Origin: an uncultured Myxococcales bacterium | GTDB lineage: Bacteria; Myxococcota_A; UBA9042; DTJE01 | DNA length: 64,000 nt | NCBI GenBank assembly: GCA_903936705.1 | Contig: CAIZWN010000020.1 | Coordinates: forward strand, 1-64,000 | Direction: 5' to 3' | Shown here: piece by piece, positions 32,465 through 51,468 of the stretch | Layout of the letters: each line of letters starts with the position of its first letter | Numbering within the stretch: position 1 is the stretch's first letter | Notes under the pieces: generated by a model | What the model saw: only the letters and a program-made list of their open reading frames with translations | Told to the model about the DNA's origin: nothing | Database searches by the model: none | Program-made: the position numbers and the translations under genes

Positions 32465-33595
32465 TCAGTGCCGCGGCGGCGTCACGGCTGGCCTGGCAGG
32501 TGCCGGACTGGGCGCTATCCCCTTGGGCTTGCCCATCTTGGCAATCGACGCGGCAGGATCGCTGACAAGGTATGGAATGGCCATTCGAGGCTGATCCTTC
32601 CGGTCCGTCAACACGTAGACCAACCCGCTGGATGTCTTGGGTGCCTTCCGCAGAACGATCCGGACAAGCCAGCCCTGTCCCTGCGGAGCCACCGTCCCGG
32701 CCAAAGCCCCGGCTGGGTCTTCGACCTTCAACAGGCTGAACGGCTTCCCGGACGCGGACGAGACTCGCATCGTGATCTCGGGGAACGGCAGCCCCTTCTC
32801 GAATGGCGACAGAACAGCAGTCGGCGGCATGACGTCGAGGTCTCCACCAACCTTTGCCCGTACCTGCAGGGTCAATTCAGGGGCCTCCGGCACGCCGGTC
32901 GCAACAGTCACTCTGCCGCTGACCTGGGCCGGAATGGGGCCTGCCGTCAAAGTCACCGCAATGGCATCAGATCCGCCGTCCTTGACCAGTTCGGCCTTCA
33001 GCAGCAAGGGATCCGACACTTTCAGGCCCGACAGATGCAGCGAACCTGGTTTCATCGCCTCGATACGCACCTTTTCGGTACGCACGGTCCCTTCGGGTAT
33101 CCGACCAAAATCCAGGAAAGGCTTCTCGAATCCGACCAGCACGTCGATGCGCCCCTTCATCGTCAGGGTAAGCTTCGGACTGGTCGCGGAGTCCGTTGTG
33201 ACATCGACGGTCTTGGTCAATGCCCCACGGCGGCCCTTCGTGTGAATCTTGACCTCGATCTGTCCTTCCCCACCCGGGGGAAGCTCGGCCGCCGAGACGA
33301 CGGCCGCTGTGCAGCCTCAACCACCCCTCGCATTCAGGATTCTCAGAACCCCGTCCCCGACATTCTTCACCACGAAGGTATGGGAAACCTCCTGGCCCTC
33401 CATCACGGCACCCCAGTCATGCTCGGGCGTGGAGCATGCGATCACCCCGTTTCCCTTTGCCGCCGCAGCGCCCACAACATCGACTGCGACCACAACCCCG
33501 GCGCCTGTATCCGAACCAACCACGCCGCCCGTGCAAGCAGCAACGGCCAGCAAGGCCGCCGCCCAGATTCCCGACGTCCACCCATGAACCTTCAT
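32465..33595 (-). CDS. DUF1573-type lipoprotein with in-frame UGA: candidate selenoprotein
   Basis: Seen: ATG 33595 (GGAGG 5 nt upstream) opens a lipoprotein with lipobox Cys21. Codon 93 (33319-33317) is TGA, yet the same frame stays open and homologous to 32465 (376 codons). Before it the sequence reads ILNARGG; after it GCTAAVVSAAELPPGG. Known: DUF1573 (ASH/HYDIN-like) proteins have a conserved Cys-Gly-Cys-Thr here, so UGA replaces exactly the first Cys. Two further ASH-like beta domains follow (to about residue 355), then a Pro-rich tail. A SECIS-like hairpin starts 10 nt past the UGA. Inference: selenocysteine is inserted, giving an exported Sec-Gly-Cys redox-type motif. Alternatives are a TGC-to-TGA pseudogene mutation or a sequencing error. 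No selABC or selC is in the window. Confidence 0.72.
33286..33306 (-). promoter_or_regulatory. Candidate bacterial SECIS hairpin
   Basis: Counting from the base after the UGA, nt 11-18 (CGGCCGUC) pair with nt 24-31 (GGCGGCCG) in eight pairs, one of them G-U. This leaves the loop GUCUC at nt 19-23. A lower stem can form between nt 1-4 and 32-35. A stem of this size, a small loop opening with G, and a loop about 18 nt from the UGA all fit the bacterial SECIS description. A second hairpin, CUUCCCC/GGGGAAG with loop CGGGU (33265-33283), begins 33 nt past the UGA and is a less well placed alternative. Confidence 0.55.
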
Positions 33596-33744
33596 GTGAA
33601 CCTCCACAACAGGGAACGAACCTCGTCCCTGATCGGTATCAGGCTGCAACGATAACGATGCAGGCTTTCAGGCGCAAGATCACCGGCAGCTTCCGTCCGT
33701 TCGCACACGCAAATCCTGAAGTTAACTGGCAGCTTCCACGCGGA

Positions 33745-50523: not shown

Positions 50524-51468
50524 TCAGTGTTTGGAACAGTCGTCCGATGCCACATGGTTGAACTTCGCATCGGGGATCATCGCGGCGTCGAAGAACGCCT
50601 GCACGAAGTACCCCGGAGTGCCCTCAGGCGTCAGGCAGCCGGGCGCCAGTTCAAAGGACCGGATGATGCTGCCGAACGACAACCAGGTCTCCCCGCAGGC
50701 CGTCTGGCAGGACGCGTCCAAGGCGTCTGGTGCGTACGTCGCCCCAGGCCCCCCTTCCCAGGCGCAGGTCCCGGGCGCGCCCATGCACATGCAGATGCGG
50801 TCTGCGGCATCGACCGTGATGCAGCCCAGCAGGAAGCCGTTGCGTATCTCGGTGCAGTCGTCGTTGAACGACGAACGGATGGTCATGTTGCTGATCGGGA
50901 TGTTGTTGGCTGGCTGGTTGTCCGGGGCACAGATCAGGGGTGCATCCTTCGGGCCCGAATGGAAGTACAGCGACGTGGGGGAGGTGCTCTTGAACTCGCA
51001 TTGCGTGCCGTGGTAGGGCGCCATCTTGACGTCCAGGCTGAGCTTGTCCAGCAGGCAGTACTCCTCCACCGCATTTGCTATCACTGGGTCGTCTTCCGCC
51101 GGCGGCATAACGTAGGGCATCTTGGGGACGCGCCAGCCCGGCCCCAACGTCAACGACAGGCTCTCGAACGCGGTCCCGGTCCCGCCGACAGCGTCGTCCA
51201 CGATGATCAGGACGTTGAGAATGTTGTTCCTCACGTCGCCCTGCCACAGCACGTTGAGGATCTGTGCGAAGGCGTCGGGCTCGTCGATCTCCAACCGCGT
51301 GACCCGGTAGACGCGGCCCTTCATGGCAGCAGCGTCACACTTCGTGCAGGTGCCGTTGCCGTCACCCCCCTGGATATTGATCGTCACCTCGGGGAACGGC
51401 GGTTCTTCGACCTTCACGCAAGCTACGGCCAGTGCCATCACGAGTACGAATCCCAAGAACGTCCGCAT
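50524..51468 (-). CDS. Cys-rich lipoprotein partnering a FadL porin
   Basis: 314 aa from ATG 51468 (AAAGGAG 5 nt upstream), lipobox Ala-Val-Ala-Cys17. The mature protein has about a dozen Cys, clustered after residue 195 (CMCMGAPGTC, CQTACGETW, DDC), suggesting disulfides. The rest alternates strands (VYRVTRLEIDEPDAFAQIL, ILNVLIIVDDAVGG). I do not recognise a family. It lies 12 bp upstream of the FadL gene, so the two may form one envelope module. Confidence 0.75.
   Translation of the reverse strand: MRTFLGFVLVMALAVACVKVEEPPFPEVTINIQGGDGNGTCTKCDAAAMKGRVYRVTRLEIDEPDAFAQILNVLWQGDVRNNILNVLIIVDDAVGGTGTAFESLSLTLGPGWRVPKMPYVMPPAEDDPVIANAVEEYCLLDKLSLDVKMAPYHGTQCEFKSTSPTSLYFHSGPKDAPLICAPDNQPANNIPISNMTIRSSFNDDCTEIRNGFLLGCITVDAADRICMCMGAPGTCAWEGGPGATYAPDALDASCQTACGETWLSFGSIIRSFELAPGCLTPEGTPGYFVQAFFDAAMIPDAKFNHVASDDCSKH

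Follow-up and report, generated by a model that had tools for sequence, protein, structure and literature searches.

A Myxococcota DUF1573 lipoprotein gene with an in-frame UGA very likely read as selenocysteine

We are confident that the minus-strand gene at positions 32465-33595 of the window, the 64,000-nucleotide stretch of an uncultured Myxococcales genome analysed here, is a true selenoprotein gene, because the Sec machinery, UGA/Cys pairs, RNA structure and intact downstream sequence all support this reading. Judged from sequence data, Sec is very likely inserted at residue 93 of the product, a predicted exported lipoprotein carrying a signal peptide with a lipobox, and SelB with Sec-tRNA(Sec), aided by the RNA structure just past the UGA, would carry out this insertion. 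The DUF1573 UGC selenoprotein family is itself already known; what is new is a broader distribution, with this little-studied exported family widespread across Myxococcota, together with a possible unusual SECIS.

Gene structure and reading frame

The gene occupies one minus-strand frame (33595-32465) interrupted solely by the TGA at 33319-33317, which joins both open stretches and bears out the proposal of an earlier note on this DNA that two open frames form one DUF1573/ASH-type lipoprotein split by TGA only. Translation would run from ATG at 33595 to the TGA stop at 32467-32465, giving a read-through product of 376 residues in which the internal TGA is residue 93. A GGAGG resembling a ribosome-binding site lies 5 nt before the ATG (33601-33605), and the TTG start at 33649 given by the mechanical ORF caller is unnecessary. 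The predicted lipoprotein signal peptide with lipobox VAAC (MKVHGWTSGIWAAALLAVAAC) spans 33533-33595, and most orthologues have similar N-termini. Using Pfam, we obtained a DUF1573 (PF07610) match of 81.1 bits over residues 54-149 of the read-through protein, above the curated cut-off of 26.1 bits, with the TGA mid-domain in the motif G-G-U-G-C-T. A six-frame scan detected a single DUF1573 copy in the source genome, with one TGA inside it. Standard annotation splits Sec-type genes of this kind into two.

When all TGAs in the window were scanned for coding potential, the one at 33319-33317 proved to have coding sequence on both sides, which is rare among the window's TGAs. The other top TGA with coding on both sides lies at 50526 on the minus strand; its second part has its own start and signal peptide, and it looks like two adjacent genes sharing a frame.

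Sec machinery in the source genome

The earlier note had called for a search for selA, selB, selC and selD and had held that absence of the machinery would count against a selenoprotein; all four were found in the source genome, a 4.85-Mb assembly of 84 contigs that is 96% complete. SelA scored 485 bits, above cut-off, and tRNA-Sec scored 72 bits, with ARAGORN assigning the anticodon TCA. SelB was also above cut-off and full-length, with C-terminal SelB-wing_2 and wing_3 domains, and selD was likewise detected. No additional selenoprotein gene was recognised in the surroundings of selA, selB, selD and tRNA-Sec.

Sec and Cys forms across relatives

A single-sequence search for related loci gave no matches; an alignment-based locus query returned mostly Cys forms because its sole pattern held the Cys codon. 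At order level a relative was present in 12 of 14 genomes, ten of which retained the UGC/CxC domain, split evenly into five TGA and five Cys forms. SelA was found in all five TGA-form genomes vs none of the five Cys-form genomes, and tRNA-Sec above cut-off followed the same division, with that of one TGA-form genome (G007, 68% complete) scoring 48 bits, barely above cut-off. Two congeners carry Cys, are 66% and 61% identical to the window protein, and both are without selA, so that species of a single genus differ in Sec or Cys form, with loss of the Sec machinery accompanying the switch.

Across the phylum (379 genomes) the orthologue codon was TGA in 16 genomes and Cys in six, with TGA at exactly the window codon in independent assemblies of other species from several families. 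This confirms the earlier statement that the family has Cys at precisely this codon, and the alignment that had been suggested for finding UGA/Cys pairs places both in the same column. SelA was present in 15 of the 16 TGA-form genomes (as a fragment only in G246) vs 0/6 Cys-form genomes; Fisher's p for selA against codon form is about 1e-4 by hand arithmetic that ignores relatedness, and related genomes are not independent trials in any of these counts of codon form against selA. Under a strict threshold selB was found in 12/16 TGA-form vs 0/6 Cys-form genomes, and tRNA-Sec exceeded 60 bits in 14 of the 16 TGA-form genomes. The TGA-form genomes G006, G007 and G012 (82, 68 and 89% complete, respectively) had no selB at the strict threshold. 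In G022, which is TGA-form, 94% complete and 6% contaminated, we found no selA, no selB and only a weak tRNA-Sec-like match; missing sequence or misbinning, given that contamination, is the likely explanation of this exception.

These data bear on two other readings of the UGA. Were it a real stop, the locus would be a pseudogene or truncated lipoprotein arising by mutation or assembly error, in keeping with the two short frames that standard gene callers would give; with the same UGA shared by 15 further genomes from several families, Cys in others, conserved sequence downstream and all Sec genes in the genome, we regard this as very improbable. The downstream sequence is conserved rather than decayed in orthologues, in agreement with the earlier observation that both sides of the codon stay family-like. 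Frameshift, sequencing error and pseudogene were each rejected on the comparative data. An open frame alone does not identify the inserted residue, and decoding of the UGA as another amino acid, through near-cognate readthrough or an altered code, would also produce one. Yet the window scan revealed no other read-through UGA, TGA serves as an ordinary terminator (also for the DUF1573 gene itself), selA occurs in step with the UGA form, and the exchange partner of UGA among aligned orthologues is always Cys, which makes such decoding more improbable still. Insertion of Sec is thus the reading that we retain.

RNA hairpins downstream of the UGA

The proximal hairpin, A, lies at 33286-33306 on the minus strand and is a candidate bacterial SECIS. 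It has an 8-bp stem (CGGCCGUC/GGCGGCCG) and the loop GUCUC at 33298-33294 (+19 to +23 after the UGA), with a spacing of 18 nt from the UGA and a folding energy of -16.9 kcal/mol, just as the earlier note had described a hairpin with a G-first 5-nt loop; pairing of G with C inside the loop is also possible. The bacterial SECIS model specifies a stem of 4-16 bp, a loop of 3-9 nt with G in its first two positions, and a distance of 16-37 nt from the UGA (PMC13188914). The bacterial SECIS search that had been advised succeeded in part, in that hairpin A satisfies this published model, while a search of Rfam gave no SECIS match. Folding of this GC-rich stretch is unremarkable alone (z = -1.7, with 12 of 200 shuffles as good), and it is the comparative data, not folding stability, that make the RNA structure convincing. 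For the Sec set, RNAalifold predicted hairpin B (below) and a short helix but left out hairpin A, and the case for A is therefore made by counting pairs directly: in 15 distinct Sec genes, 81% of the cells for its five core pairs were paired, with two-sided changes at two pairs. Sliding the partners dropped pairing for hairpins A and B together from 89% to 70% or less. The early loop G is absent from hairpin A in some relatives.

The distal hairpin, B (33265-33283, minus strand), with the stem CUUCCCC/GGGGAAG and loop CGGGU (+41 to +45 after the UGA), shows the strongest conservation of any RNA element in the Sec-type genes. Its UUCCCC/GGGGAA pairing (+35 to +51) is intact in 15/16 Sec genes vs 0/6 Cys genes. 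The loop, CGGGN, has G in position 2 and so fits the SECIS model, but the 40-nt spacing falls outside the 16-37 nt range. The peptide (I/V/L)PPGGEG encoded at hairpin B persists in part in Cys forms as well, and codon choice is therefore the test of the hairpin. Within the codons NTT-CCC-CCN-GGN-GGG-GAA, all 14 genes examined use NTT, CCC, GGG and GAA, while elsewhere in the same genes these are used at 5-9%, 42%, 24% and 22%, respectively. Most Sec genes have only 24-40% identity to the window protein, and at such divergence common descent alone should not leave them with shared silent sites. Since hairpin B hardly varies, its support comes from codon choice and from the contrast with Cys forms. 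These comparisons show selection on the RNA past the TGA in TGA forms, and loss of that selection in Cys forms.

One Sec-type gene (L049, in G127) is without hairpin B in a genome that has selA, selB and tRNA-Sec, and another (L048, in G022) has a perfect hairpin B in a genome where no selA, no selB and no clear tRNA-Sec were found.

We tentatively suggest that the Myxococcota Sec-type DUF1573 genes may carry a two-hairpin recoding element, in which the near-invariant B works in Sec insertion or its enhancement and A varies. If true, this element would constitute a bacterial SECIS class of its own, and the retention of the distal hairpin by Sec genes together with its loss from Cys genes offers a well-resolved case on bacterial SECIS requirements.

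Protein architecture and candidate role of the Sec-Gly-Cys pair

Residues 155-345 had no Pfam match, and a PDB sequence search with the protein found no relative. AlphaFold2 predicted two further Ig-like domains beyond DUF1573, making three Ig-like (ASH/DUF1573) domains in all, with a mean pLDDT of 79 over the whole protein and values mostly >80 within domains (domain blocks about 75-96). The closest PDB folds were ciliary ASH/HYDIN-type domains, with low overall TM-scores owing to the loose placement of the three domains. In the model the Sec-Gly-Cys motif sits in a loop between strands 84-91 and 96-100, and among 19 aligned proteins the invariant residues near the site are Sec/Cys93, Cys95, Thr96 and Ala97, plus His72, Asn78 and Pro107. 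Two relatives (L031 and L032) have the third domain alone behind a signal peptide, with the UGC/CGC domain gone, in genomes without selA.

We lean towards a redox role for the Sec-Gly-Cys pair, which the invariant residues and the lipoprotein signal would place at the surface or in the periplasm. The Sec-Gly-Cys-Thr loop of the first domain, between two strands, would form a redox pair that probably cycles between selenenylsulfide and selenol/thiol, with thiols of the periplasm or surface as its targets. Exported beta-sandwich proteins can hold soft metals through C-x-C pairs, and the protein might instead be a selenoprotein whose loop binds metal, for example copper, with no thiol/selenol redox chemistry. 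The nearby genes, which include no redox partner, speak for metal binding, and against it stand the majority of redox proteins among known selenoproteins (PMC9312934) and the fusion of a Cys-type relative to cytochrome c; on balance we consider metal binding, the chief competitor of the redox role, unlikely. In that relative, an Elusimicrobia protein (L088:2501-3145), a Cys-type (CGCT) DUF1573 domain is joined to a c-type cytochrome that carries CAECH and CSMCH, which hints at the redox role that we prefer. Annotated by eye, the neighbours of the window gene are a HAD-type hydrolase upstream and a convergent penicillin-acylase-like gene downstream. Gene neighbours are kept in close relatives only, with no conserved partner or pathway found, and the context therefore backs no particular redox partner.

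Comparison with known families

The earlier note took DUF1573 not to be a described selenoprotein family, which is incorrect: 'DUF1573 domain-containing protein, pfam07610, UGC' is listed as one in two reviews (PMC9312934, PMC13188914), the older of which cites Zhang and Gladyshev 2007 for it, and NCBIfam models it as NF041425. NF041425, 'OS_HP2 family (seleno)protein', was the best NCBIfam match of the window protein, scoring 95.7 bits along almost the full model. This is 4.3 bits under its curated cut-off of 100 bits, and we therefore assign the protein to the literature family rather than, strictly, to NF041425; the orthologue in G006 lies above that cut-off, at 100.7 bits. The first DUF1573 UGC selenoprotein was reportedly found by Zhang and Gladyshev in 2007, in an Olavius algarvensis symbiont. 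The window gene has the features of the literature family, namely a UGA in a UGC motif within DUF1573, Cys homologues, Sec machinery and the SECIS-like hairpin A.

Compared at domain and motif level, the window gene shares its Pfam domain and Sec-Gly-Cys motif with the listed DUF1573 UGC selenoprotein (pfam07610), and differs in its occurrence in Myxococcota, its two further Ig-like domains and its conserved distal hairpin. Ordinary Cys-type DUF1573/ASH-like proteins have Cys-Gly-Cys-Thr at the same place and an Ig-like fold resembling HYDIN/ciliary ASH domains, whereas the window gene has Sec for the first Cys, as we read it, together with candidate RNA recoding elements.
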